From the NCBI RefSeq assembly GCF_001642835.1, contig NZ_LXEI01000002.1, positions 124,001-188,000 of the forward strand: DNA of 64,000 nt. The letters are read 5' to 3'. Numbering within the stretch: the first letter of the stretch is position 1; each line of letters begins with the position of its first letter. Below the pieces are notes generated by a model. The model saw only the letters and a list, made by a program, of their open reading frames with translations. It ran no database searches and had not been told where the DNA came from. The position numbers and the translations under genes were made by a program. The DNA comes from Pseudotamlana agarivorans (GTDB taxonomy: Bacteria > Bacteroidota > Bacteroidia > Flavobacteriales > Flavobacteriaceae). Of the stretch, positions 8,677 to 35,367 are shown piece by piece.

Positions 8677-8762
8677 AAAAAGAAGGTTTCCGTAATTATT
8701 GTGCCAACCAAACATGGTTTAAGCGTACTATTTAGCTGGCAAAGTTACGCTTATTATTCTAT

Positions 8763-9653
8763 TTATGTTAAATGCGTTGTGGCAATTTCAATTGAATAGC
8801 TTGCTAAGTAAGACTTCTGGGTTTCCAATTTTATAATCCCTTCTTTGGATTTAAAATCTTGATTGGTGTTTTCATGGTCGGCAATGCCCAGCCATGGTTC
8901 GATACACACATAATTACCCGTAGGTTTTGCCCAAATGCCTAAATACGGATAGTCAGGGTAGCTAACCGTTAAAATGGGGCCGTGATTCTTACTGTGTAAG
9001 GCTACTTTTTTCGATTTTAAATCTTTAAAAATAAGGGCATCGGTACGAAACAAAACATGAGTTAGCTGTAGTGTTTTTGTGTTGTTGAATATGGTTTTGG
9101 TTTCAGAAGAAATGAGTCCGTTTTCCATGTTTATCACATGGGTTTTGGCGTTTTCTTCTTGTTCAAATTCTAAGGTATAATTTTCGTAATCTTCATTTTC
9201 AAAAACAGGACATTTAAAAGCAGGGTGTCCGCCAAGCGAGAAATATATGGGTTTGGAGTCCACGTTTTTAACCTCATGTGTGAGTGTTAATTTGTTTTCT
9301 TCTAAAGTGTAGGTGAGATAGAATTCAAACTTAAACGGATAGATTTTTAACGATTTTTCGCTGTAACCCAGTTTAAAAGTTAGGCTGTTTTCAGATTGTT
9401 TGTGAAGTGTCACATCAGAGTTGTTTCTAACTAAACCGTGTTTTGGTAGCTGGAATGATTGCCCTTCAAACATATATGTGCCATCTTTTAAGGCGCCAAT
9501 AATCGGAAATAAATTGGGCGCATAACTGTTCCAAATCTCAGGGTTCGCATCCCACATAAAGTCAGTTTGATGTTTTTTAGCGCGTATTTGGCATAATTCG
9601 GCACCTGTTTTTTTTACAGCGATTTCCAGGTATTTATTTTCTAATGTAAACAT
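8763..9653 (-). CDS. Aldose 1-epimerase family protein
   Basis: 296 residues with the galactose-mutarotase beta-sandwich pattern: FMWDANPEIWNSYAPNLFPIIGAL near the N terminus, YFSLGGHPAFKCP with the catalytic-region histidine near residue 142, and YVCIEPWLGIADHE with the conserved glutamate near residue 258. This is the YeaD/YihR-like branch rather than canonical GalM, so the substrate may be a hexose or a phosphorylated sugar. It is a single gene divergent from pabB; no sugar-use cluster is nearby. Confidence 0.85.
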   Translation of the reverse strand: MFTLENKYLEIAVKKTGAELCQIRAKKHQTDFMWDANPEIWNSYAPNLFPIIGALKDGTYMFEGQSFQLPKHGLVRNNSDVTLHKQSENSLTFKLGYSEKSLKIYPFKFEFYLTYTLEENKLTLTHEVKNVDSKPIYFSLGGHPAFKCPVFENEDYENYTLEFEQEENAKTHVINMENGLISSETKTIFNNTKTLQLTHVLFRTDALIFKDLKSKKVALHSKNHGPILTVSYPDYPYLGIWAKPTGNYVCIEPWLGIADHENTNQDFKSKEGIIKLETQKSYLASYSIEIATTHLT

Positions 9654-18566: not shown

Positions 18567-20861
18567 ATGAGTTCCTCGCCTAAAGAAAAAGCACTTACAC
18601 CTGAAGAATTTCACGATCTAAAAACCGCAAAACCACCAGTAAATAGTGTTGGTTTTGGCGGGCTAATCGCGGCTGTTAAGCAAACAACAAAGTACATGAA
18701 TCTAAAAGATGCTTTTGTGTTGGCGCGAAAAATGAATCAGAAAGGAGGCTTCGATTGTCCGGGGTGTGCATGGCCAGATCCTGATGATGATAGGTCATCA
18801 CTAGGAGAATTTTGTGAAAACGGATTAAAAGCTATTGCTGAAGAAGCTCAGAATAAAACTATTGGTGCCGATTTTTTTAATAAACACAGCGTTGATGAAT
18901 TAGCCACATGGAGCGATTTTGAAATCGGAAAATCTGGACGATTAGCGGAACCGATGTTTCTTGCTGAAGGCGCCACTCATTATCAACCCATTTCCTGGGA
19001 AGACGCTTTTAATAAGGTTGGTTCGCATTTAAATGCTTTAGATTCTCCAGATGAAGCAGTTTTTTACACCTCGGGAAGAACCACAAATGAAGCGGCTTTT
19101 TTATACCAATTATTTGTTCGAGAGTTTGGAACTTCTAATTTACCCGATTGCTCAAATATGTGTCATGAAGCCAGTGGCAGCGCCTTGTCTGAAACTCTAG
19201 GAATTGGTAAAGGTTCGGTGACTTTAGATGATTTATACAAAGCAGAATTGGTGCTAGTCGTGGGGCAAAACCCAGGAACAAACCACCCTAGAATGTTAAC
19301 CGCATTAGAGAAATGTAAAAATAATGGCGGAAAGGTGGTGGCTATAAATCCGCTACCAGAAGCAGGATTAGTTAGGTTTACCAATCCGCAAAACCCTATA
19401 AAATTATTAACCGGCGGAACACAAATTGCCGATGTATTTGTGCCTATTACGATTAATGGTGATGTGGCCTTTTTTAAAGCCATACTTTTAAAGTTATTAC
19501 AAGCTGAAGAGAGTCAAGGTGGTGTATTCGATAGGGAATTTATAAATGAATTTACCCATGGATATGATGCTTTTATAGCAGATTTAAAAACTTACAATTT
19601 TGAGGATTGCTTAGCGGATTCAGGGGTGTCTTTAGATATTTTCAATCATGTTTTTGATTTGGTTTTAAACAAAAATAAAATCATTATTTGTTGGGCTATG
19701 GGCTTAACACAACATGAAAATGCTGTTGATAATATTCGCGAAGTTGTTAATCTTCTGCTTTTAAAAGGAAGCATTGGTAAAGAAGGCGCAGGAACCTGCC
19801 CTGTTCGTGGGCACTCCAATGTTCAAGGCGATAGAACGGTTGGGATTTTTGAAGCAGCGCCTCAGGCTTTTTTAGATAAAATTGAAGACAAATACGGATT
19901 TAAACCCAGTGCCAAACACGGTTATTCCGTTATCGAGGCCATAAAAGCCATGTACGAGAAAAAGGCCAAAGTGTTTTTTGGTTTGGGTGGTAATTTTATC
20001 TCGGCGGTTCCCGATACCTTATATTCCGCGAAAGCGTTAGAAAACTGTAATTTAACGGTGCATGTAAGTACTAAGCTTAACCGCTCACATTTGGTAACAG
20101 GAAAGGAAGCACTCATATTTCCTTGTTTAGGACGTACCGAAAAGGATTATCAGAAATCGGGGCTTCAAATTCAAAGTGTTGAAAATTCTATGGGTGTCGT
20201 ATCTTCAACTAAAGGTGTTTTAGAACCCTGCTCTAAAGACCTTCTAAGTGAAGTGGCTGTAGTTTGTGGTATCGCACACGCTACTTTAAAGGAACGTTCT
20301 AAAATTAATTGGTTAGCGTATAAAGACGACTATACTTTGGTGAGAAACGATATTGAAGAGGTAGTTTCTGGTTTCGATAGTTATAATAAGCGCTTAAATA
20401 ATCCTTCAGGATTTTATTTACCTAATGGAGCGCGGGTTAGAAAATTTAATACTTCTACAGGAAAAGCTAACTTTTCCATTAATAAAATGCCAGATTGGAA
20501 GTTAAAGGACGGCGAATTGGTAATGATGACCATACGTAGTCATGATCAATTTAATACCACGATTTATGGTTTAGACGATCGTTACCGTGGTGTGTTTAAC
20601 GACCGACGTGTTGTGTTTTTGAACCGTGAAGACATGCAAGAACGGGGGGTAACCGAGCATCAGGTGGTTAATTTGAAGTCGGAATTCAATGGAATAACTA
20701 GAAAAGTACGTAGTTTTAAGGTTGTTGGTTACGATATTCCTAAAAACTGTTGCGCTACTTATTTTCCAGAAACGAATGTTTTGGTGCCGCTAGATAGTTT
20801 TGCGCATACTGCGAAAACGCCCGCATCCAAGAGTATCCGTGTTACAATTGAGATTCTTTAG
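18567..20861 (+). CDS. FdhF/YdeP-family molybdopterin oxidoreductase
   Basis: 764 residues, the usual length of the YdeP-like branch of formate-dehydrogenase-type enzymes that bind bis-MGD. The N-terminal cysteine-rich motif (FDCPGCAWPDPDDD, then FCENGLKA) and the ETLGIGKGSVTLDDL and VVGQNPGTNHPRML stretches are characteristic, as are GTCPVRGHSNVQGDRTVG and the C-terminal molydopterin-dinucleotide-binding domain (MTIRSHDQFNTTIYGLDDRYRG). No in-frame TGA is present, so it is not a selenoprotein. The electron donor is unknown. It precedes nirB by 157 bases but lacks the shared palindrome, so membership in the nitrate regulon is uncertain. Confidence 0.87.
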   Translation: MSSSPKEKALTPEEFHDLKTAKPPVNSVGFGGLIAAVKQTTKYMNLKDAFVLARKMNQKGGFDCPGCAWPDPDDDRSSLGEFCENGLKAIAEEAQNKTIGADFFNKHSVDELATWSDFEIGKSGRLAEPMFLAEGATHYQPISWEDAFNKVGSHLNALDSPDEAVFYTSGRTTNEAAFLYQLFVREFGTSNLPDCSNMCHEASGSALSETLGIGKGSVTLDDLYKAELVLVVGQNPGTNHPRMLTALEKCKNNGGKVVAINPLPEAGLVRFTNPQNPIKLLTGGTQIADVFVPITINGDVAFFKAILLKLLQAEESQGGVFDREFINEFTHGYDAFIADLKTYNFEDCLADSGVSLDIFNHVFDLVLNKNKIIICWAMGLTQHENAVDNIREVVNLLLLKGSIGKEGAGTCPVRGHSNVQGDRTVGIFEAAPQAFLDKIEDKYGFKPSAKHGYSVIEAIKAMYEKKAKVFFGLGGNFISAVPDTLYSAKALENCNLTVHVSTKLNRSHLVTGKEALIFPCLGRTEKDYQKSGLQIQSVENSMGVVSSTKGVLEPCSKDLLSEVAVVCGIAHATLKERSKINWLAYKDDYTLVRNDIEEVVSGFDSYNKRLNNPSGFYLPNGARVRKFNTSTGKANFSINKMPDWKLKDGELVMMTIRSHDQFNTTIYGLDDRYRGVFNDRRVVFLNREDMQERGVTEHQVVNLKSEFNGITRKVRSFKVVGYDIPKNCCATYFPETNVLVPLDSFAHTAKTPASKSIRVTIEIL

Positions 20862-20979: not shown

Positions 20980-20995
20980 TAAGTATAAATACTTA
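20980..20995. promoter_or_regulatory. Palindromic operator upstream of nirB
   Basis: TAAGTATAAATACTTA: 7-base arms TAAGTAT and ATACTTA with a two-base centre. It abuts a -7 match, TAGTTTTG (20994-21001), and lies 23 bases ahead of the nirB ATG. The same core recurs upstream of narK and of the nitrate reductase gene. Confidence 0.75.
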
Positions 20996-21018: not shown

Positions 21019-23532
21019 ATGAAACAAATAATTGTAGTTGGAAACGGAATGGTTGGTTATAAGTTTTGTGAAAAATTTGTAGCAACCCAAGAAAGTAAAG
21101 ACTTTAAGATCACGGTTTTTGGAGAAGAGCCAAGACCTGCTTACGATCGAGTTCACTTAAGTGAGTTTTTTGAAAACCAAGACGCCGAAGCTTTAGAGAT
21201 GGCTCCTAGCACATGGTATGAGGAAAACGGTATCGAATTGGTAACTAGCGAGCGTGTCGTAGATATAAGTAGAGGGAAAAAAACAATTACTACGGTAAGT
21301 GATCGCGTATTTTCTTATGATTATTTAGTTTTAGCAACAGGATCTGCACCTTTTGTACCGCCAATTAGAGGGGTAGAGAAAAAAGGGGTTTTTGTATATA
21401 GAACCATTGAAGATTTAGAAGGCATGTTGGCTTACGCTGCTAAGATTAAAGCTGAAAATCCAAATGCTAGAGCAGCCGTTCTAGGTGGTGGTTTATTAGG
21501 TTTAGAGGCTGGTAAAGCGGTTAAGGATATGGGCTTAGAGCCACATATTGTTGAGTTTGCAAATAAATTAATGCCAAGACAATTGGATTTGAGAAGTAGT
21601 CAAGTACTGCAACTTAAATTGGAGTCTATTGGTTTAAATATACACTTAAGTAAAGCGACCAATCAGATTTTAGGTGATGATCGAATCACAGGAATGGAAT
21701 TTGGCGAAGATGATGTTCTAGATGTGGATATGCTTGTTATTTCGGCAGGTATTCGACCTAGAGACGAACTAGGAAAAACCTGTGGTTTAGAAATGGGTGT
21801 TCGTGGCGGCATTGTAGTTGATAACAAAATGCAAACGTCAGATCCTAATATTTATGCCATTGGTGAAATCGCTTTGTACAATCAAATGATTTACGGATTG
21901 GTTGCTCCTGGTTACGATATGGCTGAGGTTGCTGTAAATCAAATTATCGGGAATACCGAAAAATTAATGCCTGCAGACATTGACATGTCTACCAAACTAA
22001 AGTTAATTGGGGTAGATGTAGCAAGTTTTGGTGAGCCGTTTATGCCACCGTCTAAAGGCCATTCTATTATTTTTGAAAATAAAACACAGTATTTATATAA
22101 ACGTATTAACGTTAGCCTAGATGGGAAATCGCTTTTAGGAGGGGTTTTAGTTGGTGATGCTTCAGATTATAGCATGTTACACCAAATCTACCTAAATGGT
22201 ATGGCTATTCCAGAAGATCCTGCTCAATTAATCTTACCAGCTACCGAAGGTGGTGGTGCATTTGGTGATGTAATGGATTTACCAGATGAGGCTCAAATAT
22301 GTTCTTGTGAAAGCGTTACAAAAGGACAGATTTGTGGTGTTATTGAAAGTGGTGAGGCTAAAGATTTAGGAGATGTTGTGTCTTGCACTAAAGCAGGAAC
22401 TGGTTGTGGTGGTTGTAAGCCTATGGTAAAAGATCTTACCGATGCCACCTTAAAATCGCTTGGTATTGAAGTTAAAGATACCATTTGTGAGCACTTCGAA
22501 TTAGGAAGACAAGAACTATACGATATAATTAAAATTAAAGGCTATAGAACTTTTAACGAAGTTATAGATAACCATGGAACAGGTTGCGGATGTGAGCTTT
22601 GTAAGCCTCTAGTAGCGTCGTTAATGGCTTCTATTCATGCCGATACGGCTAATAAAGAGTACGCTATCCAAGATTCTAACGATAGATTCTTAGCGAACAT
22701 TCAACGAAACGGAACCTATTCTGTTGTACCACGTGTACCAGGGGGAGAAATTACTCCAGATAAACTTATTGCTCTTGGACAGATTGCTAAGAAATACGAT
22801 TTATATACTAAAGTAACAGGTGGTGTGCGTATCGATTTATTTGGTGCAACATTAAAACAGTTACCATTAATCTGGAAGGAATTAATTAGTCATGGTTTCG
22901 AAAGTGGTCATGCTTACGGTAAATCGTTACGTACTGTAAAAACATGTGTAGGATCTACATGGTGTCGTTATGGTATGGATGAAAGTGTAAGTTTTGGTAT
23001 TGAATTAGAAAACAGATACCGAGGTATTCGTGCACCACATAAAATTAAAGGTGGAGTTTCTGGATGTATTCGTGAATGTGCTGAGGCGCGTGGAAAAGAT
23101 TTCGGACTTATCGCTGTTGATGGTGGTTGGAACCTTTACGTAGGTGGAAACGGAGGAGCAACGCCGCGTCACGCCGAACTTCTAGCTGAGCAAATCGATA
23201 ATGAAACTGTTATTAAATATTTAGATAGATACTTAATGTTCTATATGAGAACAGCTAAGCCTTTACAACGTACTGCTGCATGGCAAGAGCGTTTAGAGGG
23301 TGGTATGGATTACTTAAAAGAAGTGATTATAGACGATAAATTAGGGATTGCCTCAGATTTAGAAAATGAAATGGAAACCCTTGTTAATAAGTTTGAGTGC
23401 GAATGGACGCAAGCAGTTAATGATCCTGAAATGATGAAGCGTTTCAATCACTTTGTAAATAGTGAAGACGAAGATGATAACTTGGTTTTTGTCCCTATGA
23501 GAGAACAAAAAATGCCAGAACCTTGGAATTAA
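21019..23532 (+). CDS. nirB: NAD(P)H-dependent nitrite reductase, large subunit
   Basis: Cytoplasmic six-electron reduction of nitrite to ammonium. 837 residues with the full NirB order: FAD/NAD(P)H reductase domain (QIIVVGNGMVGYKF, AVLGGGLLGLEAG), two BFD-like [2Fe-2S] segments (ICSCESVTKG...GCGGCKPMV, then GCGCELCKP), and the ferredoxin-like plus sirohaem/[4Fe-4S] domain. The last carries its four ligands Cys643, Cys649, Cys683 and Cys687 in TCVGSTWCRYG and GCIRECAEA. First gene of nirB-nirD-DUF4202-kinase-RidA-regulator, all closely spaced. The palindrome at the promoter suggests shared control with narK and the nitrate reductase. Confidence 0.96.
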   Translation: MKQIIVVGNGMVGYKFCEKFVATQESKDFKITVFGEEPRPAYDRVHLSEFFENQDAEALEMAPSTWYEENGIELVTSERVVDISRGKKTITTVSDRVFSYDYLVLATGSAPFVPPIRGVEKKGVFVYRTIEDLEGMLAYAAKIKAENPNARAAVLGGGLLGLEAGKAVKDMGLEPHIVEFANKLMPRQLDLRSSQVLQLKLESIGLNIHLSKATNQILGDDRITGMEFGEDDVLDVDMLVISAGIRPRDELGKTCGLEMGVRGGIVVDNKMQTSDPNIYAIGEIALYNQMIYGLVAPGYDMAEVAVNQIIGNTEKLMPADIDMSTKLKLIGVDVASFGEPFMPPSKGHSIIFENKTQYLYKRINVSLDGKSLLGGVLVGDASDYSMLHQIYLNGMAIPEDPAQLILPATEGGGAFGDVMDLPDEAQICSCESVTKGQICGVIESGEAKDLGDVVSCTKAGTGCGGCKPMVKDLTDATLKSLGIEVKDTICEHFELGRQELYDIIKIKGYRTFNEVIDNHGTGCGCELCKPLVASLMASIHADTANKEYAIQDSNDRFLANIQRNGTYSVVPRVPGGEITPDKLIALGQIAKKYDLYTKVTGGVRIDLFGATLKQLPLIWKELISHGFESGHAYGKSLRTVKTCVGSTWCRYGMDESVSFGIELENRYRGIRAPHKIKGGVSGCIRECAEARGKDFGLIAVDGGWNLYVGGNGGATPRHAELLAEQIDNETVIKYLDRYLMFYMRTAKPLQRTAAWQERLEGGMDYLKEVIIDDKLGIASDLENEMETLVNKFECEWTQAVNDPEMMKRFNHFVNSEDEDDNLVFVPMREQKMPEPWN

Positions 23533-23554: not shown

Positions 23555-23932
23555 ATGGAATTAGTTTTAGATAAATACGCAACAACCAAAGTAGAAGATG
23601 TCAAGGTTTGGTTTAAAGCCGCATCGGTAAACGATTTTCCTCAAGATGGAGGGGCTTGTGTGAAATATAAAGACAAGCAAATAGCTGTTTTCAATTTCGC
23701 AAAAATGGACAAATGGTATGCCTGCCAAAATGTTTGTCCGCATAAAATGGAAATGGTTTTATCAAGAGGTATGATTGGAGATGATAAAGGAATTCCAAAA
23801 GTAGCTTGTCCGTTACATAAAAAAACTTTCTCATTAGAGAATGGCGAAAATTTAAATGGAGATATGGATGCTATTGCTACATATCCAGTAAAAATTGAAG
23901 GAGAAAATGTGTATATTGGCTTTTCAGAATAA
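23555..23932 (+). CDS. nirD: Nitrite reductase small subunit, Rieske-type
   Basis: 125 residues. It has a Rieske-like fold with both cluster motifs intact: C-P-H in ACQNVCPHKMEM and C-P-L-H in VACPLHKKTF. NirD proteins vary in whether they keep these ligands, so this one may bind a [2Fe-2S] cluster. The GDMDAIATYPVKIEGENVYIGF ending is typical. It starts 22 bases after nirB and is the partner subunit. Confidence 0.93.
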   Translation: MELVLDKYATTKVEDVKVWFKAASVNDFPQDGGACVKYKDKQIAVFNFAKMDKWYACQNVCPHKMEMVLSRGMIGDDKGIPKVACPLHKKTFSLENGENLNGDMDAIATYPVKIEGENVYIGFSE

Positions 23933-23956: not shown

Positions 23957-24541
23957 ATGAAGCCTACAAGATTTGAAACCGCAATAGCTTTAATAGATAA
24001 AAAAAACGCCGAAGATACTAATACATACCACGTTGCAGGTATAGAATACCCTAAAGAATTGCTGTATTCACAGCGTATGACAAGGAAGTTACTGCAATTT
24101 AACCCTAATGCTTCAAAGGCACTTCAAATCGCGGCAAGAGCACAACACATCTGCCGCTGGAAAATAGCAAGAGATGAGTACCCTATGGATCGTGTAGGGT
24201 ATTTAAAATGGCGTGAAACTTTAAAGAAAATGCACGCCGAAATTACTGCTGAAATTTTAGAGCAAGTAGGCTACGATCAACAATTTATTGATAGAGTGTC
24301 TTTATTAATAAATAAAAAGCTCATTAAAAAGAATGAAGAAACTCAAATTCTAGAAGATACCATCTGTTTGGTGTTTTTAGATTATTATTTCGAAGAATTC
24401 GCAGCGAAACATGACGACGAGAAAATTATAGATATTCTTCAGAAAACTTGGGTTAAAATGTCGGAAGATGGACATCAAGCCGCACTGAAGTTACCTTATT
24501 CAGAGAAAAGTCTTGAACTCGTTAAAAAAGCAATTTCATAA
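23957..24541 (+). CDS. DUF4202 family protein
   Basis: 194 residues, all-helical in appearance, with RFETAIALIDKKNAED at the N terminus and AARAQHICRWKIARDEYPMDR, a His-containing helix that resembles HD-type metal sites. It also contains VGYLKWRETLKKMHA and DTICLVFLDYYFEEFAAKHDDEKI. DUF4202 genes are known neighbours of assimilatory nitrite reductase genes, but the biochemical role is not established. It sits 24 bases after nirD and ten before the sensor kinase, clearly in the operon. Confidence 0.82.
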   Translation: MKPTRFETAIALIDKKNAEDTNTYHVAGIEYPKELLYSQRMTRKLLQFNPNASKALQIAARAQHICRWKIARDEYPMDRVGYLKWRETLKKMHAEITAEILEQVGYDQQFIDRVSLLINKKLIKKNEETQILEDTICLVFLDYYFEEFAAKHDDEKIIDILQKTWVKMSEDGHQAALKLPYSEKSLELVKKAIS

Positions 24542-24551
24542 GATGTAATAT

Positions 24552-26372
24552 ATGACGAAGCACGGAAATTCATTAGACCAAAGTACGTTTGATAAATTAA
24601 GCCGGCTTTATATTATTGCTTTAAGTGCCATCGCGGTCTCTGTCATTGTTAGTCAAATTCTAATTCGTAATCACCTTTCTAATCAGGAAACAGATTCTTC
24701 GGTCATAAATGTTGCAGGGCGACAACGTATGTTAAGTCAGAAACTGACTAAAAACGTCGTGTCACTCACTTCAGAAAAATCGCTTGAAGAGCGGATAGCC
24801 TTAAAAAATAGAATAAAGGAAACGCTTAATGTTTGGGAACTTTCGCATCATGCCCTTCAAAATGGTAATGATAGCCTAGGGCTTCCTGATACCAATTCGG
24901 CCGATGTAAGAGCCCGTTTTGCTGTACTGAATCCCGTTTTTGATAAAATGAGTTTCGCTACGCAAACCATTATTTCCGAAATTGAACAGTCTCCTGACTT
25001 AAATTTAGCTGCTTTAAATGCCGAGGTGAACATTGTAAGAGACAATGAAGGTGATTTTCTCTTGATGATGGACGATATCGTAAATCAATACGATCTTGAG
25101 GCCGAGAAGAAAGTCGCATGGCTGCGTAGGCTAGAGTCATGGCTTACAGCGTTAACCTTACTCATATTATTGGCAGAATTTTTATTCATTTTCTGGCCTG
25201 CAGCGAAATCGGTGAGATCCACGCTTTCAGAGTTATTGTATGCCGAAAAACGTGCCAAGAAAATGGCTTTTGATGCCGATGAGCTTAGTTTGGCTAAAGA
25301 AAAATCCATTAAGGAATTGCGTGCTTTAAGTCGCGCTATGGATGATACCTTATTATTTGCTCGTATTTTACAAAATGGTCAAATCGTACATATGGGTAAT
25401 AAGTTTTCACGCTTATTTACCTATTCAAAACTTAACGATTTAGGCTTATTTTGGAAAGTGTTGTCAACCGTTGAAAACGAACAGTTACTAATTGAAGAGT
25501 TAGTGGTAAAGTATAAAAAAACAGGTTGGCAGGGTGAAGTAAAAGCGACAACCAAAGCAGGAAAAGATGTATGGTTGGAAATGGCCATCATTCCATATAG
25601 TCCTACCGAAGATAAATCGGAGTTGCTCATTATTGCTTCCGAAATCACCGATAGAAAAGAAGCGCAACTTGAAATTGACCGACTTACTGCAGCGAGTTTC
25701 GAGGAGAAAATGAATCAGCAAAAAATCATTTCTAGTAAGATTATTGAAAACCAAGAAAAGGAGCAAAACCGAATTGCTAAAGATGTGCACGACGGTATTG
25801 GGCAAATGCTTACGGGGTTAAAATATAATTTAGAAAGTATTGATACCACTGATGTGGAAAAAGCCACGGCTAAAGTTGAAAACCTAAAAGTGCTCGCTTC
25901 CGATATTATTAAAGGTATTAGAACGGCAACCTTTAATTTAACACCGCCAGAATTAACCGATCATGGTATCGTGCCAGCCATTACGAAGTTAACTCAAGAA
26001 TTGGCTAAGCTTACCGGAAAACAAATTATGCTGTTTAATAAAACCGATTTTAATCAGCGATTAGATTCTTTAACCGAGATTAATATTTATCGCATCACTC
26101 AAGAAGCGATTAATAATGCGATTAAATACGCTGAAACCTCACATATTCTGGTGTCATTATCTCATAGTGAAGATATTTTGAGTATTGTTATTGATGATAA
26201 CGGAATTGGTTTCAATCCGAGTAAGGTTAAAAATATTAAAAATGGTGATGGGGGTATGGGGATGACCTTTATGAGAGAACGTATTAAATACATTAACGGT
26301 CGATTTTTTATAAATTCTGAACCAGGTAAAGGTACACGTGTAACCCTAAATATCCCATTGAAAGAGAAGTAA
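24552..26372 (+). CDS. NarX-like membrane sensor histidine kinase
   Basis: 606 residues. TM1 is near 19-38, followed by a periplasmic PilJ/NarX-type domain whose P-box-like segment VINVAGRQRMLSQKLTK (about 51-67) is the part that binds nitrate or nitrite in NarX. TM2 is near 198-216, then a coiled linker and a PAS domain (residues about 260-375). The HisKA_3 dimerisation domain has NRIAKDVHDGIGQ with the phospho-acceptor His413. The HATPase domain has EAINNAIKYA, DDNGIGF and GGMGMTFMRER. Two genes downstream is a NarL-type response regulator. Ligand specificity for nitrate is inferred from the domain and operon. Confidence 0.88.
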   Translation: MTKHGNSLDQSTFDKLSRLYIIALSAIAVSVIVSQILIRNHLSNQETDSSVINVAGRQRMLSQKLTKNVVSLTSEKSLEERIALKNRIKETLNVWELSHHALQNGNDSLGLPDTNSADVRARFAVLNPVFDKMSFATQTIISEIEQSPDLNLAALNAEVNIVRDNEGDFLLMMDDIVNQYDLEAEKKVAWLRRLESWLTALTLLILLAEFLFIFWPAAKSVRSTLSELLYAEKRAKKMAFDADELSLAKEKSIKELRALSRAMDDTLLFARILQNGQIVHMGNKFSRLFTYSKLNDLGLFWKVLSTVENEQLLIEELVVKYKKTGWQGEVKATTKAGKDVWLEMAIIPYSPTEDKSELLIIASEITDRKEAQLEIDRLTAASFEEKMNQQKIISSKIIENQEKEQNRIAKDVHDGIGQMLTGLKYNLESIDTTDVEKATAKVENLKVLASDIIKGIRTATFNLTPPELTDHGIVPAITKLTQELAKLTGKQIMLFNKTDFNQRLDSLTEINIYRITQEAINNAIKYAETSHILVSLSHSEDILSIVIDDNGIGFNPSKVKNIKNGDGGMGMTFMRERIKYINGRFFINSEPGKGTRVTLNIPLKEK

Positions 26373-26836: not shown

Positions 26837-27502
26837 ATGGATATTATTAATGTTGTGCTTGCCGATGATCATGTTTTGGTTAGAGATGGAATAAGAGCAC
26901 TTTTAGAAGATCAATCTGGAGTTGAAGTGATTGCCGAGGCTTCAAATGGAAAGGAAGCTTTGGAAATTGTTGCTGAGACTAAACCACATGTACTAATTGT
27001 TGATATTAGAATGCCCGAAATGAACGGTATTGAAGTGGTTGGTGTTATAAGTAAAATATATCCTGATGTTCGTACTTTAGTATTATCTATGCACGATTCC
27101 GAGGAATATGTGTTAAAAGCCATTCAGGCTGGAGCCGATGGTTATCTGTTAAAAGGAGCTAGTAAGGAAGAGTTTATCAAAGCGCTGAATAATGTGGCTT
27201 CTGGTGGTAAGTATTTTACTGGTGATGTGTCTGCAATCATTATGAATAACTTTGTTAATGGCAACACAAACGCTGCAGTAGTTCCAGAGAAAAAGGTTGT
27301 AAAAGATCCGTTTAAGCTTACAAAGCGTGAAAAGCAAATACTTAATTTAGTATTGCAACTTAAAAATAATAAGGATATTGCTGAAGAACTTCAAATCAGC
27401 AAACGTACCGCTGAGGTACATCGTTTTAACTTGATGAAAAAGTTAGAGGTTAAAAATTTGATGGAACTTAGCAATAAGGCTAAGGAATTCGATCTAGTAT
27501 AA
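26837..27502 (+). CDS. NarL/FixJ-type response regulator
   Basis: 221 residues. The receiver domain has acidic pocket DD at 10-11, phospho-acceptor Asp56 in VLIVDIRMPEMNG, switch residues in LVLSMHD and Lys in YLLKGAS. A linker follows, then a LuxR-type helix-turn-helix at about 155-215 (FKLTKREKQILNLVL, NNKDIAEELQISKRTAEVHRFNLMKKL). Pairs with the NarX-like kinase. Members of this family bind DNA as dimers on inverted 7-base sites. The shared palindromes upstream of nirB, narK and the nitrate reductase are the natural candidate targets (inference). Confidence 0.9.
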   Translation: MDIINVVLADDHVLVRDGIRALLEDQSGVEVIAEASNGKEALEIVAETKPHVLIVDIRMPEMNGIEVVGVISKIYPDVRTLVLSMHDSEEYVLKAIQAGADGYLLKGASKEEFIKALNNVASGGKYFTGDVSAIIMNNFVNGNTNAAVVPEKKVVKDPFKLTKREKQILNLVLQLKNNKDIAEELQISKRTAEVHRFNLMKKLEVKNLMELSNKAKEFDLV

Positions 27503-28223: not shown

Positions 28224-28245
28224 AATTAAGTATAAATACTTAATT
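28224..28245. promoter_or_regulatory. Palindromic operator upstream of narK
   Basis: Perfect inverted repeat of AATTAAGTAT and ATACTTAATT with a two-base AA centre (10-2-10). The core TAAGTATAAATACTTA is identical to the nirB site. A -7 match, TAATTTTG (28241-28248), overlaps its right end, the same arrangement as at nirB. narK starts 52 bases further on. The rest of the gap from 28030 shows no gene. Confidence 0.8.
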
Positions 28246-28297: not shown

Positions 28298-29788
28298 ATG
28301 AATACAACTAAAGGTGCAAATAAAATACTCTTTATAAATACTTTAGCCTTTACTTTTTGCTTTGCAGCTTGGCTGTTAAATGGCATATTGGTGACATTTT
28401 TAGTAGACAATCAAGTTTTCAATTGGTCTGGTGTTGAAATAGGATGGTTAATAGGGATTCCTGTATTAACGGGTGCTATATTTAGATTGCCAGCCGGAGT
28501 TTTAACCGATAAACTAGGCGGGAAACCTGTGTTTACGGGCTTATTGTTGTTATGTGCTGTTCCTATGTATTTGTTGTCTTATGCTAACGATTTTTGGTCT
28601 TTCGCATTATGTAGTTTAGGTTTTGGAATTGCAGGTGCTAGTTTTGCCGTAGGTATTGCATTTTCATCTATTTGGTTTCCTAAGGAAAGACAAGGTGTTG
28701 CCCTAGGGATCTTTGGTGCTGGTAATGCAGGGGCTGCGATAACTACTTTAGTAGGTCCTAAACTTTTGGATTACTTAACCGATGGTAAAACCAATTTAGA
28801 TGGTTGGAGAGAAATGCCTAAAATTTATGCTGCAGTATTGGTGCTTATGGCGGTTATATTTTTCTTAACGACTAAAAATAAGAAGCCTGCTTCAAGTACT
28901 AAGAGCTTAAAAGGAATGATGGCGCCGCTTAAAAGTATTAGAGTTTGGCGTTTCGGATTATATTACTTCTTAGTTTTTGGATGTTTTGTGTCTTTTGCGG
29001 GATGGTTAGTGCCTTATTATACTAATGTTTATGCATTAGATTTAGCTACCGCCGGACTTTTGGCGTCTTGTTTTAGTTTGCCTTCTGGAGTTATTAGAGC
29101 TTTTGGTGGTTGGTTGTCCGATCGCGTGGGTGCTAGAAAAGTGATGTATTGGGTGCTAGGGTCTTCTTTAATTTTTAGTGCGATTTTAATCGTTCCTAAA
29201 ATGGATATATATGCAGCTGGAAAAGGAATAATGGCTAAATCCGCCGGAACAGTTACCGATGTGAGTTCAACTTATATCGAAGTTAATGGTGTTAAATATC
29301 CTGTGAAAAGTAAAACAGACAAACTTACCAACGTCGATGAAGGTTTCCATATTTTTCCTGTGAAGGAGTCTTGGCAAGAAGTGCTTGTTCAGAAGGGTGA
29401 TGAGGTTAAAAAGAAACAGTTAATTGCTAAAGGAAATACACATATTTTCTTTCAAGCCAATTTATGGATATATGCGATTATTGCGATAATTATAGGTTCT
29501 ATTTGGGGTATTGGTAAGGCTGCCGTTTATAAGCATATTCCTGACTATTTCCCTGAAGAAGTTGGTGTTGTAGGCGGTATGGTCGGCGTTCTTGGTGGAC
29601 TAGGTGGTTTCGTTTGCCCAATTTTATTCGGGTACTTATTGGAAGGCACTGGATTGTGGTCAAGCTGTTGGATATTAATGTTATTCTTATCAGCTATCTG
29701 TTTAATTTGGATGCATAGAGTGGTGCAAAAAATGGCCGATAAAGCAACGCCTCAGCTGGTGGATAAGTTTGAAAAGGAAATGGAGTAA
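28298..29788 (+). CDS. narK: Nitrate/nitrite transporter of the MFS NarK/NasA family, with an inserted soluble domain
   Basis: Inner-membrane nitrate uptake or nitrate/nitrite exchange. 496 residues. The nitrate signature motifs are present: GAGNAGAAITTLVGP after TM4 (about 140-154) and GVLGGLGGFVCPILFG near TM11 (about 430-445), together with FRLPAGVLTDKLGGKP and SGVIRAFGGWLSDRVGAR. Unusually, about 85 residues (302-386) between the segment ending SSLIFSAILIVP and the one starting LWIYAIIAIIIG are hydrophilic and look like a small beta domain (SAGTVTDVSSTYIEVNG, then VQKGDEVKKKQLIAKG, which resembles biotinyl/lipoyl-type barrels). It carries the shared operator and lies between the nir operon and nitrate reductase. 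Confidence 0.9.
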   Translation: MNTTKGANKILFINTLAFTFCFAAWLLNGILVTFLVDNQVFNWSGVEIGWLIGIPVLTGAIFRLPAGVLTDKLGGKPVFTGLLLLCAVPMYLLSYANDFWSFALCSLGFGIAGASFAVGIAFSSIWFPKERQGVALGIFGAGNAGAAITTLVGPKLLDYLTDGKTNLDGWREMPKIYAAVLVLMAVIFFLTTKNKKPASSTKSLKGMMAPLKSIRVWRFGLYYFLVFGCFVSFAGWLVPYYTNVYALDLATAGLLASCFSLPSGVIRAFGGWLSDRVGARKVMYWVLGSSLIFSAILIVPKMDIYAAGKGIMAKSAGTVTDVSSTYIEVNGVKYPVKSKTDKLTNVDEGFHIFPVKESWQEVLVQKGDEVKKKQLIAKGNTHIFFQANLWIYAIIAIIIGSIWGIGKAAVYKHIPDYFPEEVGVVGGMVGVLGGLGGFVCPILFGYLLEGTGLWSSCWILMLFLSAICLIWMHRVVQKMADKATPQLVDKFEKEME

Positions 29789-29956: not shown

Positions 29957-29980
29957 AAATTAAGTATTTATACTTAATTT
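29957..29980. promoter_or_regulatory. Palindromic operator between narK and the nitrate reductase gene
   Basis: Perfect inverted repeat with 11-base arms AAATTAAGTAT (29957-29967) and ATACTTAATTT (29970-29980) and a TT centre. The TAAGTAT/ATACTTA core is shared with nirB and narK. It lies about 435 bases before the nitrate reductase ATG and 168 after narK, so if it marks the promoter the transcript has a long leader. Confidence 0.75.
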
Positions 29981-30415: not shown

Positions 30416-33400
30416 ATGATTAAAAACGAAGTAAAAACAACGTGTTCATATTGTGGTGTAGGCTGCGGAATTATTGTTAAAAAAGACAGTAATAACAAGG
30501 TGCTTGTTGAGGGTGATAAGGATCATCCTGTTAACCGTGGCATGCTTTGTTCAAAAGGTATGAATTTGCACTACGTCTCTAACGACACCTCCGATAGAAT
30601 TTTATACCCAGAAATGCGCTGGAGCCGATCTCACCCAAGAGAGCGTGTGAGTTGGGATGATGCCCTTGATCGTGCAGCAAGCGTTTTCAAATCTATTATA
30701 AAAAAACACGGTCCAGATAGTGTAGCTTTTTATGTTTCTGGACAGAGTTTAACAGAAGAATATTATATCGCTAACAAGCTTACTAAAGGCTTTTTAGGGA
30801 CCAATAACATCGATACCAACTCCAGACTTTGTATGAGTTCGGCCGTGGTAGGTTATAAGAAAACTTTTGGTGAGGATAGTGTGCCTATTTCGTATGCCGA
30901 TATTGAGTTGGCTGATACGTTTTTAATATCTGGTGCGAATCCTGCTTGGTGTCACCCGATACTTTTTAGACGTATTGAAAAGCGTAAAGAGGACAATCCC
31001 GATGTTAAAATTATTGTGGTTGATCCGCGTAAAACAGATTCCGCTAATTTTGCTGATTTACACTTACAATTGTTACCTGGTACAGATGTTATTTTATACA
31101 ATGCTATTGCCAGATGTCTTTATAAAAGCGGTTTAATTGATGAAAAGTTTATTGCTCAGTATACCGATGGTTTTGCCGAGTATAAAGATTTAATTTTCCA
31201 AACTTCATTACGAAAAGCTTCAAGTTTATGTGGGGTTTCTGAAGATGATATAAGAAAGGCTGCCAAGTACATCGGACTTTCAAAAGGTTTTATCAGCATG
31301 TGGGCCATGGGGCTTAATCAAAGTGTGGTAGGAACCGATAAAAATGTGTCCTTATTAAACTTATCGCTTATCACAGGTCAGGTTGGAAAGCCAGGTGCTG
31401 GCCCATTTTCACTTACAGGTCAGCCAAACGCAATGGGTGGTCGTGAAGTAGGAGGGATGGCTAATTTATTGGCTGTCCATAAAGATTTAATGAATGAAGA
31501 GCATCGTCGTGAAGTGGCTCAGTTTTGGGGGGTTGATCAAATTAATCCGAAACCAGGACTTACTGCTACCGAAATGTTTGACGCTCTTGAAAGTGGAAAA
31601 TTAAAAGCCATTTGGGTTGCTTGTACCAATCCGTTAGTGAGTCTACCTAACTCAAATCGTATTGAACGTGCCATGAAAAACGCGAAGTTTGTTGTGGTTC
31701 AAGATATATCTCATAAATCGGATACCGTAGATTTTGCCGATTTAGTACTTCCTGCAGCAGCATGGCTTGAGAAGGAAGGTACTATGACGAATTCTGAAAG
31801 ACGTATTTCATACCTGCCTAAAGAAATTGATGCGCCAGGGGAAGCTAGACCAGATGTTGAAATCTTTTGTGATTTCGCACAACGTATGGGCTTCAGAGGT
31901 TTCAATTTTAATAATGCCAGCGAAATTTATGATGAATATGCATCGATGACCAAAGGCACGAATATCGATGTGTCTTTCTTGAATTACGATCGATTAAAAA
32001 ATGAAGGTACGTTTCAATGGCCAGTTCCAGAATACAGACATCCAGGAACACCGCGATTGTTTGAAGATAAAAAGTTTTACACGCCTTCAAAAAAGGCACA
32101 ATTCAACTTACCTAGTACCATTGAAAATACGTCGGTTCAGCCTAACGACGATTATCCGTTAATTCTAACCACAGGGCGTGTGCGTGATCAATGGCATACC
32201 ATGACGAAAACCGGAAAGGTATCTCGTTTAAAAACACATTACCCAACACCTGTTTTAGAAATCAACCCTGTTGATGCCTTCTTGAATAAAATTAAAGATG
32301 GCGACATCACCGAGATTAAAGGTGAAAACGGTGAAGTTCGTGTGCGTGCAAAAATTACCGATACCATTAAAAAAGGTGTTGTTTTCTTACCGATGCACTG
32401 GGGTAAACAGTTACAGAGTGATTTAAACCGCGCCAATAATTTAACCAATACGCATGTCGATCCGACATCCAAAGAACCAGATTTTAAATTTACCCGTGTA
32501 GCGGTTTCAAAATATAAAAAGCCTGTAGAAAAAATTATTATCGTAGGGGCTGGAGCAGCGGCATTCCGTTTTGTTCAAAATTATAGAGAATATAATGAGG
32601 TTGATGAAATTCATGTATTTTCCAAAGAACCTAATTTGTTTTACAATAGGGTTTTATTACCAGAATATGTTACCGAAGAGTTGACTTGGGAACAGTTGCT
32701 TAAAATTAAAGAATTAGAACTTGGTAAACTAAATATTCATTTACATCCAGAAACGTCAATTTCTAAAATAGATAAAGAAAATAAACAGGTTACCGATAGT
32801 AACAATGAAACCCATAGTTTCAATAAGTTGATTTTGGCAACTGGTAGTCGAGCGTTTATTCCTAAAGATGTTCAAATTGATTTACCTGGACGTTTTACAA
32901 TGCGTAATAAAAGTGATGCCGATAGGTTTAAAGCTTATTTAGATGCTACTAATTTACCACCGGAAGAACAACATGTGGTTATCGTAGGAGGTGGATTATT
33001 AGGTTTAGAGCTAGCAGCTGCCATGAAGCATAAAAACGCTAAAATTACCATTATTCAACGTGCTTCTCGACTTATGGAACGTCAGTTAGACAAGGTTTCA
33101 AGTAAGTTGTTAGCTCTTGATGTTCAAGAACGTGGTATTCAAATTTACTTTGATAACGAAGTAAGTACCGTTTTCGATGATGAAGATACAGGAGAATTAA
33201 ACATCACTTTAAAAAGTGGAAAATTCATTACTGCGAATGCTATTGTATATGCTATAGGAACCATTCCTAACGTGGAAATGGCAAGAGCAAACGGTATTTC
33301 TTGTAGTCGTGGGGTTAAAGTAAATCAGCATTTAGAATCTTCTCACAAAGATATTTTTGCCATTGGTGAAATTGCCGAATACAATAACCAATTGTTTGGT

Positions 33401-33937
33401 ATTACTTCGGCAGCCGAAGAGCAAGCGGGTATTCTAGCCAACTTTATTGCCGGTGATATTAGCTGCGCATATAACGGTTCGGTGTTAATGAATATCTTAA
33501 AATTCAATGATTTAAATCTTTGTAGTATTGGTGAAATTAGTGTGCCTGAAAATGATGAAAGCTACGAAGAAATCATCTTTACAGATATTAAAAAGCGCTA
33601 CTACAAGAAGTGTATTGTTAAAGACGATTTATTAGTTGGTGCGGTTTTAATGGGCGATAAAAATGAATTTGCCGAATTTAAAACCATGATCGAAAGTAAA
33701 ATTGAAATGGCCGATAAGCGTAATACCTTACTTAGAGGGGCTTCAAACGATACGCCTGTTATAGGTAAATTAGTTTGTTCTTGTAGTCAAGTGGGTGAAG
33801 GGAACATTGAAGAGGCTATTGCAAAAGGGTGTACCGACTTTACTGAGTTGTGCAGTAAAACTGGTGCTGGATTAGGTTGTGGAAGTTGTAAAACTGAAGT
33901 GCGTGAAATACTTCATAATTCAAAGGTGTTAGCATAA
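30416..33937 (+). CDS. Assimilatory nitrate reductase fused to its NAD(P)H-FAD reductase and a [2Fe-2S] domain
   Basis: 1173 residues. Residues 1-690 are a Nas/Nap-type bis-MGD catalytic unit, with an N-terminal [4Fe-4S] site at Cys10, Cys13, Cys17 and Cys45, and the probable Mo ligand Cys139 in TNSRLCMSSAV. GQPNAMGGREVGGMANLL and the C-terminal LTTGRVRDQWHTMTKTG are also present. Residues about 704-1050 are a two-Rossmann FAD/NAD(P)H domain (KIIIVGAGAAAFRF, HVVIVGGGLLGLELAAA, IFAIGEIAEY) like that at the start of NirB. Residues about 1117-1165 are a BFD [2Fe-2S] domain (CSCSQVGEGNIEEAI, GLGCGSCKTEV). In other bacteria the reductase is a separate subunit. The product can plausibly take NAD(P)H to nitrate on one chain. 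It overlaps the next gene by one base. Confidence 0.92.
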   Translation: MIKNEVKTTCSYCGVGCGIIVKKDSNNKVLVEGDKDHPVNRGMLCSKGMNLHYVSNDTSDRILYPEMRWSRSHPRERVSWDDALDRAASVFKSIIKKHGPDSVAFYVSGQSLTEEYYIANKLTKGFLGTNNIDTNSRLCMSSAVVGYKKTFGEDSVPISYADIELADTFLISGANPAWCHPILFRRIEKRKEDNPDVKIIVVDPRKTDSANFADLHLQLLPGTDVILYNAIARCLYKSGLIDEKFIAQYTDGFAEYKDLIFQTSLRKASSLCGVSEDDIRKAAKYIGLSKGFISMWAMGLNQSVVGTDKNVSLLNLSLITGQVGKPGAGPFSLTGQPNAMGGREVGGMANLLAVHKDLMNEEHRREVAQFWGVDQINPKPGLTATEMFDALESGKLKAIWVACTNPLVSLPNSNRIERAMKNAKFVVVQDISHKSDTVDFADLVLPAAAWLEKEGTMTNSERRISYLPKEIDAPGEARPDVEIFCDFAQRMGFRGFNFNNASEIYDEYASMTKGTNIDVSFLNYDRLKNEGTFQWPVPEYRHPGTPRLFEDKKFYTPSKKAQFNLPSTIENTSVQPNDDYPLILTTGRVRDQWHTMTKTGKVSRLKTHYPTPVLEINPVDAFLNKIKDGDITEIKGENGEVRVRAKITDTIKKGVVFLPMHWGKQLQSDLNRANNLTNTHVDPTSKEPDFKFTRVAVSKYKKPVEKIIIVGAGAAAFRFVQNYREYNEVDEIHVFSKEPNLFYNRVLLPEYVTEELTWEQLLKIKELELGKLNIHLHPETSISKIDKENKQVTDSNNETHSFNKLILATGSRAFIPKDVQIDLPGRFTMRNKSDADRFKAYLDATNLPPEEQHVVIVGGGLLGLELAAAMKHKNAKITIIQRASRLMERQLDKVSSKLLALDVQERGIQIYFDNEVSTVFDDEDTGELNITLKSGKFITANAIVYAIGTIPNVEMARANGISCSRGVKVNQHLESSHKDIFAIGEIAEYNNQLFGITSAAEEQAGILANFIAGDISCAYNGSVLMNILKFNDLNLCSIGEISVPENDESYEEIIFTDIKKRYYKKCIVKDDLLVGAVLMGDKNEFAEFKTMIESKIEMADKRNTLLRGASNDTPVIGKLVCSCSQVGEGNIEEAIAKGCTDFTELCSKTGAGLGCGSCKTEVREILHNSKVLA

Positions 33938-35367
33938 TGGAAGAACCATATAGAATTAAGATAAATGGAGGTGTGTTGTCTCCAGGTGAGTTAAAATATA
34001 TTTGTGAAGCAGCCGAAAGTTTAGGTTTAGATGCGATTTCATTTGGTTCTCGCCAAGATATTATTTTTCCAGAGCAAATTGGTGAAAGTAAATTCGATCA
34101 GTTTAGTAAAATCCAGTTTATAAAACCGAAACGCGATGGTATCCAGAATATCGCTTCGTCTTATGTATCTGCCGAAATATTACCGAGTACCTCTTGGTTA
34201 ACAAGTGACCGTTATCTGTATATCTTAGAGCAGTTTAAACATAAATTAAAACTAAGGGTTAATATTACCGACCCTAGACAACGCTTGGTGCCTTTATTTA
34301 CTGGAAATGTGAATTTTATCGCTTCCGATCATGAAGATTACTGGTATTTATATGTTAGACTTCCAGGTTGGAAAAAAACATTGATGTACCCTGCGCTTAT
34401 TTATAGCTGGGATATGGATAAAATTGAAATCGCCATTGAAAATATATTACAAGAGGAGCCTGAAACTATTGAAACGGTTTTCGATTTGGTAAGTGATGCT
34501 GTCGATACTAATAATAGGACGGTTGATAAGCCGCTAGAAGTGCCTTTCTATCCTTTTCCTTATTATGAAGGTATGAACCGTATTGGTACAGATCGTTATT
34601 GGTTAGGCTTGTATTGGAGAAATAATCGCTATGATTTAAAGTTTCTTAAAGCAATGTGTGAGCTGTGTTCGGAAAATAAGATTGGAAAGATCTCGATCAC
34701 ACCATGGAAATCCTTTATCGTAAAAGGTATTCCATTGAAAGCGAAACTTCAATGGGAAAAGTTTTTAGGAAAATTCGGAATCAATGTGCGTCATTCCATG
34801 CTCGAAATGAACTGGCACTTACCTGTAAACGATAGAGAAGCCTTAAATCTTAAAAAGTACTTGGTAACTAATTTCGATCAAAATGATATTAGTACCTACG
34901 GACTTACCTTCGGAATTACAAGTTATGAAAGTGATACCTATAATTTTACCTCTATTGTTATTGAAAAAAACAAACAACCAGATATTATAGGGGATTTTAA
35001 AATTAGAGATACCTATAATTTATTATATGCTAAGAATTTCGATCCGAACACGCAACAATATATCATGCATGTTCAAGATGTAGATAAGGTGGAATTACCT
35101 GGTTTGTTGATGGAATTAAGTCAGTTGTACTTCGAACAATTAGGAACCGAACGCGAAGAGGAAGAGGTGAGCGTTATTAAAAAGGAACGTAGCGAAGAGG
35201 AGGTTTATCAATGTTCGGAATGTTTAACGGTTTACAATGAGGTTTATGGCGATGTTACGCAAGATATTGCGCCTAACACCCCTTTTGAAAAATTAGAGGA
35301 TACTTATGAATGTTCCCTTTGTGAGGCTCCTAAAAGTAGTTTTGAAAAGAAAGTATTAGTCAAATAG
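33937..35367 (+). CDS. Nitrite/sulphite reductase-like scaffold without cluster cysteines, with C-terminal rubredoxin
   Basis: 476 residues. The C terminus (about 422-470) is a rubredoxin: CSEC...CSLC around GDVTQDIAPNTPFEKLEDTYE. The first 400 residues show two repeats resembling the ferredoxin-like half-domains of sirohaem nitrite/sulphite reductases (RIKINGGVLSPGELKYICEAAE...AISFGSRQDIIFP, later RYWLGLYWRNNRYDLKFLKAM...ISITPWKSFIVKGI). The C-x5-C and C-x3-C sirohaem/[4Fe-4S] ligands are absent: the only other cysteines are in YICEAAE and MCELCSE. The start overlaps the nitrate reductase stop (TAATG), so the two are translated together and probably interact. A role as electron-transfer partner is inference; catalytic nitrite reduction is unlikely. 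Confidence 0.75.
   Translation: MEEPYRIKINGGVLSPGELKYICEAAESLGLDAISFGSRQDIIFPEQIGESKFDQFSKIQFIKPKRDGIQNIASSYVSAEILPSTSWLTSDRYLYILEQFKHKLKLRVNITDPRQRLVPLFTGNVNFIASDHEDYWYLYVRLPGWKKTLMYPALIYSWDMDKIEIAIENILQEEPETIETVFDLVSDAVDTNNRTVDKPLEVPFYPFPYYEGMNRIGTDRYWLGLYWRNNRYDLKFLKAMCELCSENKIGKISITPWKSFIVKGIPLKAKLQWEKFLGKFGINVRHSMLEMNWHLPVNDREALNLKKYLVTNFDQNDISTYGLTFGITSYESDTYNFTSIVIEKNKQPDIIGDFKIRDTYNLLYAKNFDPNTQQYIMHVQDVDKVELPGLLMELSQLYFEQLGTEREEEEVSVIKKERSEEEVYQCSECLTVYNEVYGDVTQDIAPNTPFEKLEDTYECSLCEAPKSSFEKKVLVK

Follow-up and report, generated by a model that had tools for sequence, protein, structure and literature searches.

A one-chain nitrate reductase paired with a rubredoxin-bearing, sirohaem-reductase-like protein in Bacteroidota

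Within a 64,000-nucleotide stretch of the Pseudotamlana agarivorans genome (hereafter the window; contig NZ_LXEI01000002.1, positions 124,001 to 188,000 of the forward strand), a gene for a single-chain assimilatory nitrate reductase, here called FUS, is followed by one for a protein, here called RUBX, whose core resembles the sirohaem-dependent sulfite and nitrite reductases, lacks the cysteines that hold their [4Fe-4S] cluster and ends in a rubredoxin. The pairing of FUS and RUBX is real and widespread in Bacteroidota. Tentatively, and with somewhat less than even confidence, we read RUBX as a non-catalytic electron-transfer and docking partner that would join FUS to the nitrite reductase NirBD.

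Domains of FUS and RUBX

The first gene and its parts are as follows:
30416..33937, + strand: FUS, single-chain assimilatory nitrate reductase, 1173 residues (open reading frame (ORF), Pfam, nitrate-gene neighbourhood)
30428..30583, + strand: Molybdop_Fe4S4, [4Fe-4S] domain, FUS 5-56 (C10, C13, C17 and C45, each in 35 of 36 aligned rows)
30596..31882, + strand: Molybdopterin domain, FUS 61-489 (Pfam)
32159..32494, + strand: Molydop_binding domain, FUS 582-693 (Pfam)
32531..33424, + strand: Pyr_redox_2 FAD/NAD(P)H module of the NirB/NorW type, FUS 706-1003 (Pfam and family models)
33056..33061, + strand: Q881-R882, nucleotide-binding site of FUS (alignment)
33488..33703, + strand: Rubredoxin_C, the rubredoxin reductase C-terminal domain, FUS 1025-1096 (Pfam)
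33770..33916, + strand: Fer2_BFD, [2Fe-2S] domain, FUS 1119-1167 (C1121, C1123, C1155 and C1158 in 36 of 36 rows)

An earlier note on this DNA had described a 1173-residue frame with molybdenum (Mo)/[4Fe-4S], FAD/NAD(P)H and BFD domains, overlapped by one base by the next gene. ORF and Pfam matches agree on the domains, and position 33937, within a TAATG, is common to both frames. In architecture, FUS joins a Mo/[4Fe-4S] chain of the nitrate reductase type to an FAD-NAD(P)H module of the NirB/NorW type and to a BFD domain; neither a flavodoxin nor an FAD_binding_1 domain is among the Pfam matches of FUS. The highest-scoring curated models were formate dehydrogenase alpha, then NasC, NasA and NapA, all under their cut-offs (for NasC/NasA, NF047855 at 536.6 vs. 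1100 bits and NF041323 at 496.1 vs. 1000). Such scores, coming from equivalog models that each cover a narrow clade, limit the name given to FUS rather than its kind, and FUS is identified as a nitrate reductase from its CMSS motif together with its neighbours (a NarK-like transporter, NirB and a Rieske-type NirD). C139 of this motif, presumably the Mo ligand, is present in 35 of 36 rows, as is the motif itself; the only row without it is that of locus L066, where the frame was taken without its N-terminal part. By sequence, the nearest solved chain is a periplasmic nitrate reductase, the match covering the Mo part. A structure prediction of FUS was unusable (predicted local distance difference test (pLDDT) 53.1, predicted template modelling score (pTM) 0.36).

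The second gene comprises:
33937..35367, + strand: RUBX, sirohaem-reductase-like protein without cluster cysteines and with a C-terminal rubredoxin, 476 residues
33952..34071, + strand: NIR_SIR_ferr half-domain, RUBX 6-45 (R39 and Q40 in 67 of 67 rows)
34570..34782, + strand: second half-domain (weak CobG match), RUBX 212-282 (T255 and K258 in 67 of 67 rows)
34657..34668, + strand: CxxC, RUBX 241-244 (both Cys in 60 of 67 rows)
34792..34806, + strand: H286-E290, ending at an 11-residue gap that deletes the first cluster Cys (H in 66, E in 67 of 67 rows)
35206..35343, + strand: rubredoxin, RUBX 424-469 (C426, C429, C459 and C462)

PF03460 (NIR_SIR_ferr) matches RUBX in two stretches (E 5.1e-11), while PF01077 (NIR_SIR) gives no Pfam match up to E 1. 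An AlphaFold2 model built from 54 rows (pLDDT 66.5, pTM 0.43), good for fold recognition only, was matched by Foldseek first to the sulfite reductase hemoprotein SiRHP (2gep, E 9.8e-13, template modelling (TM) score 0.39-0.40, root-mean-square deviation (rmsd) 9.7), and by VIA to sulfite reductase 4g39 (Z 14.9, rmsd 5.5, 268 residues of 3-294) and Mycobacterium NirA (residues 1-406, Z 14.6, rmsd 7.6). The match in fold is strongest across roughly residues 1-294 and extends to 406 in some alignments, the region 294-420 being hardly covered; given whole-length Foldseek TM values of about 0.4 and rmsd of 9-11, the domain arrangement is poorly modelled. The C-terminal rubredoxin (PF00301, 46.7 bits against a cut-off of 23) has two CxxC knuckles, and residues 421-474 match rubredoxins with Z up to 9.8 (1rdg). 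Its four Cys are present in 59 of 67 rows, the remaining eight forming a rubredoxin-less clade. In two loci (L060, 10469-11848, and L062, 9493-10941) the middle loop of the rubredoxin is much shortened, with both knuckles kept.

Aligned as a profile with five sequences of the NirA/sulfite reductase kind (399 columns, probability 93.3, E 2.7e-7, about 16% identity), RUBX has gaps at two of the four cluster Cys (CX5C, CX3C) and places Met291 and a Tyr opposite the other two. In the first alignment, of 33 rows (the window and 32 relatives), no Cys column besides 241/244 and the rubredoxin exceeds 18 of 33. The Cys pair 241/244, complete in 33 of 33 rows there, was considered as a displaced set of ligands and rejected: it sits in a helix of the second half-domain, opposite two Ala of NirA, and is incomplete in 7 of 67 rows. 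Judged from these alignments, the cluster ligands of RUBX are lost, and RUBX is therefore no nitrite reductase of the canonical kind; their absence also rules out a working sirohaem nitrite reductase. The earlier note was right that the cluster Cys are missing; they have not moved elsewhere. Its picture of two half-domains without cluster Cys joined to a C-terminal rubredoxin holds in those parts, but RUBX is more than two half-domains and has other conserved Cys, namely the CxxC at 241/244.

The loss of the cluster ligands does not extend to the rest of the core. Ten residues are invariant in 67 of 67 rows (R39, Q40, Q115, N126, E211, R228, T255, K258, E290 and K306). In the alignment with NirA, the counterparts of R39 and T255 are the Arg (of T-T-R) and the Thr found in the motifs of its two half-domains. 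R39 and T255 may line one pocket, which the model is too weak to show; since charged residues are invariant, including E290 beside the deleted cluster loop, this pocket could be argued to still bind something.

Distribution of the gene pair

The pair was followed in 392 Bacteroidota genomes at least 90% complete, with FUS and NirB counted from the two best candidates per genome under strict thresholds; for the follow-up of FUS and NirB, all candidates were scored in 38 genomes and in 11 genomes. Three further subsets, A1, A2 and A3, held 21 of 32 relatives, 53 of 80 loci and 36 of 78, respectively. Near full-length RUBX was found in 33 genomes of the sample, and the full FUS fusion in 36 (that of G179 aligned only from residue 152). 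In 31 of the 31 genomes with both, RUBX lies downstream of FUS on the same strand (the window and 30 loci); in L060 another ORF intervenes. A scan of GTDB r220 returned at least 588 confirmed related stretches, not necessarily distinct genes. Among the best 80 of these, all names read as Bacteroidota, and FUS stands directly upstream of RUBX in 78, the other two loci ending inside FUS. The genes overlap in 64 of these 78 loci, by one base in 37 and by four in 27. The arrangement of the two genes is thus no matter of chance.

Full-length NirB occurs in 31 of the 392 genomes, which are exactly those with a rubredoxin-bearing RUBX; the RUBX copies of G126 and G388 are without rubredoxin, and these genomes gave no FUS or NirB match. 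This exact co-occurrence would also suit RUBX as a nitrite channel or sensor, handing nitrite from FUS to NirB or reporting it, with the rubredoxin as a redox switch. Some basic residues persist near what we take to be the old anion site of sulfite reductase (R39, and K or R at position 107 in 64 of 67 rows), but Q70, which aligns with NirA R196, is replaced by a basic residue in none of the 67 rows and position 105 varies, and we regard such a role as improbable.

Five of the 36 fusion genomes are without RUBX, which rules out RUBX as the obligatory partner of every fused reductase; the FUS chain accordingly has no general need of it. All five have a NirA-family reductase (62, 66, 83, 83 and 100% identity to the protein of locus L065, the last being that protein itself), their best NirB match is FUS only, with no full-length NirB, and between NirA and FUS lie a CPR-type FAD/NAD reductase (5/5) and a flavodoxin domain (4/5). 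In the FUS tree, one fully supported branch sets the five NirA-linked enzymes apart from the rest, and the tree program flags a meeting of long branches at that deep join. Since a single branch separates the two groups, the contrast between RUBX/NirB and NirA amounts to one unreplicated event, and the FUS tree, giving this one branch only, yielded no independent evolutionary support for the NirB link. Fisher values, in which each genome counts as independent, are not relied on.

The branch on which RUBX was gained or lost also carries a change in the nucleotide-binding site of FUS. Residues 881-882 read QR in 26, HR in 4 and QL in 1 of the 31 RUBX-linked enzymes of the sample, and QR in 22 and HR in 3 of 25 additional ones; the NirA-linked enzymes have EL (3/5) or EM (2/5), and NirB of the window has E. 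An acidic residue at this position is usual for NADH, and basic surroundings for NADPH. Gln/His-Arg in place of Glu suggests NADPH use by RUBX-linked FUS. The same absence of Glu (31/31 and 25/25) could be taken to mean that FUS has itself given up NAD(P)H and that RUBX is its electron input, but the GGGLLG and FAD motifs are intact and the Q/H-R pair is, as we see it, of the NADPH type rather than a sign of decay, so that we give this idea very little credence.

For the search outside Bacteroidota, a plasmid collection gave four RUBX records (two from Persicobacter, one each from Hymenobacter and Spirosoma) and, for FUS, 312 records matching at E 1e-100, of which five had at least 80% cover. 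These five are the four RUBX records and a two-gene actinomycete pair. The Hymenobacter record annotates the pair as ‘nitrate reductase’ and ‘rubredoxin’, followed by cobA.

Possible roles of RUBX

In the family of G388, RUBX is present in 35 of 147 genomes, as 39 copies, 31 of them with rubredoxin; 28 of these 31 lie beside FUS. The eight copies without rubredoxin form one fully supported clade nested among rubredoxin-bearing RUBX (the tree leaves out 9 of the 67 rows) and retain the core residues and the CxxC. None of the eight lies beside FUS. Six of their genomes yielded no full fusion and no NirB with all candidates scored (one, G425, has only a Mo-domain match), and the other two have FUS, NirB and an operon RUBX with rubredoxin. 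The presence of rubredoxin therefore largely tracks FUS/NirB, and the core is kept without them. Since rubredoxin-less copies persist where FUS and NirB were not found, the core has a role outside the pairing with FUS. Beside one such copy, at locus L068, stands a sirohaem reductase gene (7518-9647, 709 residues, C-terminal HEPN domain), which also adjoins genes for 5-aminolevulinate synthase, HemC and HemB.

One role possible without rubredoxin is the handling of tetrapyrroles: the core would bind sirohaem or a precursor without a cluster and pass it to NirB, or to sulfite reductase in the rubredoxin-less genomes. This would fit the invariant R39, which corresponds to the Arg of the NirA T-T-R motif, the K or R at position 107, the sirohaem biosynthesis gene cobA after RUBX in Hymenobacter, and the hem genes near RUBX at L068 and L188 (5-aminolevulinate synthase, HemC, HemB), with the sirohaem reductase at L068 as well. 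It leaves the rubredoxin unexplained, however, and the NirA-linked genomes also need sirohaem, yet are without RUBX. Beyond the hem genes and the near-twin loci L190/L192, the eleven loci inspected (eight of them rubredoxin-less) have no further neighbour family in common, and the downstream genes of four scanned operon loci, including L188, are MOSC, MoaA, MoeA or TauE. We consider tetrapyrrole handling rather unlikely.

A catalytic role is the other possibility that the conserved core raises. Here RUBX would be an enzyme with an altered active site, in which FUS or NirB reduces the rubredoxin and this feeds a new metal or haem site at H286/E290 that removes leaked nitric oxide (NO) or hydroxylamine. 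H286 and E290 lie beside the deleted cluster loop, and R39, R228, K258 and K306 are invariant; proteins with a fused rubredoxin, such as the NO reductase flavorubredoxin and a class III hybrid cluster protein, appear among the structure matches; and in Bradyrhizobium, according to the part of the source consulted, NasC is able to produce NO, and its expression goes together with that of NO detoxification (PMC4724949). A ligand set was not identified, though, 7 of the 67 rows lack a complete CxxC, and rubredoxin-less copies occur in genomes where the fused nitrate reductase was not found, which makes the proposal doubtful. In a broader form, which we hold to be unlikely too, the RUBX family would have given up the Cys-ligated sirohaem-[4Fe-4S] centre in favour of a different cofactor or substrate site (H286, E290, R39, R228, K258, K306), fed by rubredoxin that the flavin domains of the nitrate and nitrite reductases reduce. 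Outside nitrate assimilation, the rubredoxin-less clade would then put this catalyst or carrier to a second use.

The reading of RUBX as an electron-transfer and docking partner may be set out as follows. In FUS, electrons would pass from NAD(P)H, probably NADPH, to FAD, the BFD [2Fe-2S], the [4Fe-4S] cluster and the molybdenum-bis(molybdopterin guanine dinucleotide) centre, where nitrate would be reduced to nitrite. RUBX would act as a one-electron carrier and docking hub: electrons would move between its tethered rubredoxin and the FAD modules, of the NorW/NirB type, in FUS and NirB, and its core would dock the nitrate-reducing to the nitrite-reducing enzyme, so that reducing power is common to both steps. 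We favour this reading because a rubredoxin needs a flavin reductase of the FUS/NirB kind, and because Paracoccus offers a precedent: there, in the text consulted, NasC takes NADH electrons via the nitrite reductase NasB and the small Rieske protein NasG (PMC5424462), and nitrate and nitrite reduction thus share NADH electrons through a small iron protein, as proposed here. The Paracoccus carrier is a Rieske protein, whereas here the Rieske protein NirD is also present and RUBX is an additional partner. Also in its favour are the Rubredoxin_C domain of FUS and the scores of FUS and NirB with the NorW model (NADH:flavorubredoxin reductase; 164 and 133 bits, cut-off 392). The loss of rubredoxin in a clade away from FUS, mostly without FUS/NirB, is as expected if the partner of the rubredoxin is FUS or NirB.

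Several observations weigh against it. The NirA-linked FUS dispenses with RUBX, and the correlation with NirB goes back to the single event, at the flagged deep join, described above. Among the three rubredoxin-bearing copies not beside FUS, that at L188 belongs to a genome (G410) that has RUBX and NirB and no FUS match, although the assembly is fragmented (270 contigs) and the gene lies 655 bases from a contig end. That at L190 is a second rubredoxin-bearing copy, away from FUS, so that at least one genome has such a copy; L192 is its near-twin, with the upstream side cut by a contig end. Finally, the strongly conserved charged residues of the core, read from the alignment, exceed the needs of a mere scaffold; together with the rubredoxin-less clade, they are what electron transfer and docking chiefly leave unexplained. 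Sirohaem handling or a new redox activity would seem to explain both better. The earlier note's idea of an adaptor for the fused reductase, possibly linked to NirB, thus gains from the loss of the cluster ligands, the tight co-occurrence and the NirB link, and loses as a general account of FUS or of RUBX, given the fusions without RUBX and the rubredoxin-less copies without the fusion.

Known systems, neighbouring genes and significance

RUBX shares fold and profile match with SiRHP and NirA, and differs from them in its absent cluster Cys and added rubredoxin. The flavorubredoxin NorV, like RUBX, has a C-terminal rubredoxin on a larger protein, and its reductase NorW belongs to the family of the FUS/NirB module; NorV, however, has a flavodiiron fold, unlike the RUBX core with its likeness to sirohaem reductases. 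As for FUS, its NirB-type FAD module and BFD [2Fe-2S] domain set it apart from the mycobacterial NasN, which is reportedly a diflavin enzyme, going by the title of a 2020 paper.

Mycobacteria already provide a known single-chain nitrate reductase, and Nonomuraea has a two-gene version. NasN (MSMEG_4206) is a monomeric assimilatory nitrate reductase, like FUS in one chain, with NADPH dependence stated in the part of the source consulted, where a RUBX-like partner goes unmentioned (PMC7816997). The same text gives Klebsiella Nas as a heterodimer (PMC7816997), and in Bradyrhizobium the NAD(P)H reductase Flp is separate from NasC, in contrast to the one chain of FUS. The statement that the NAD(P)H reductase of Nas systems is normally a separate subunit is therefore sound for these two, and not for NasN as described in that text. 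In Nonomuraea, two frames of 680 and 464 residues with overlapping ends, in the same order, together match FUS 6-1166, as two genes rather than one chain. A sirohaem-reductase fold with a non-catalytic, structural site is found in DsrAB, in the text consulted (PMC10229431); DsrAB retains structural sirohaem or sirohydrochlorin, whereas no cofactor has been demonstrated for the RUBX core. Among the titles and abstract openings of the open-licence PMC literature, we found no description of RUBX or of the FUS/RUBX pair.

The nitrate genes near the pair in the window are:
21019..23532, + strand: NirB, NAD(P)H nitrite reductase large subunit (TIGR02374, 992.7 bits, cut-off 578.35)
23555..23932, + strand: NirD-like Rieske-type small subunit, adjoining NirB downstream (Rieske_2, 90.8 bits, cut-off 27)
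28298..29788, + strand: NarK-like nitrate/nitrite transporter of the major facilitator superfamily (TIGR00886, 183.3 bits, under the cut-off of 311.7)

A nitrate transporter and a nitrite reductase are likewise present in many loci of relatives. Directly before NirB lies a second Mo-oxidoreductase, of the FdhF/YdeP family (18567-20861; TIGR01701, 905.5 bits, cut-off 582.15), and NirD is adjoined by a DUF4202 protein (23957-24541; 259.5 bits), relatives of which occur in many nitrate loci and, in Hymenobacter, adjoin cobA. Between NirBD and FUS are a sensor kinase (24552-26372), PilJ-type in its N-terminal domain and partly similar to NarX/NarQ, and a response regulator partly similar to NarL (26837-27502). 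Relatives of both occur in many related nitrate loci, and the two make a candidate nitrate sensor of Bacteroidota. The palindrome TAAGTA-N4-TACTTA occurs exactly three times in the window (20980-20995, 28227-28242 and 29961-29976), upstream of the NirB, NarK-like and FUS genes, respectively; allowing at most one mismatch, four matches were observed vs. 0.40 expected. In related loci, 93 matches were counted in 3.04 Mb, with positions checked for part of them only. The palindrome is a possible operator of a nitrate regulon.

The assimilation of nitrate by Bacteroidota of sea and soil carries ecological weight. If RUBX is needed for it, a conserved component of the pathway, present with its rubredoxin in 31 of the sampled genomes and among the related stretches of GTDB r220, and annotated merely as ‘rubredoxin’ in the Hymenobacter record, would have been overlooked. 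There is a reasonable chance that the RUBX core will prove more than a variant of a known system, and if it does have a new cofactor or function, this would be the re-use of an ancient enzyme fold, in a form that is directly testable.

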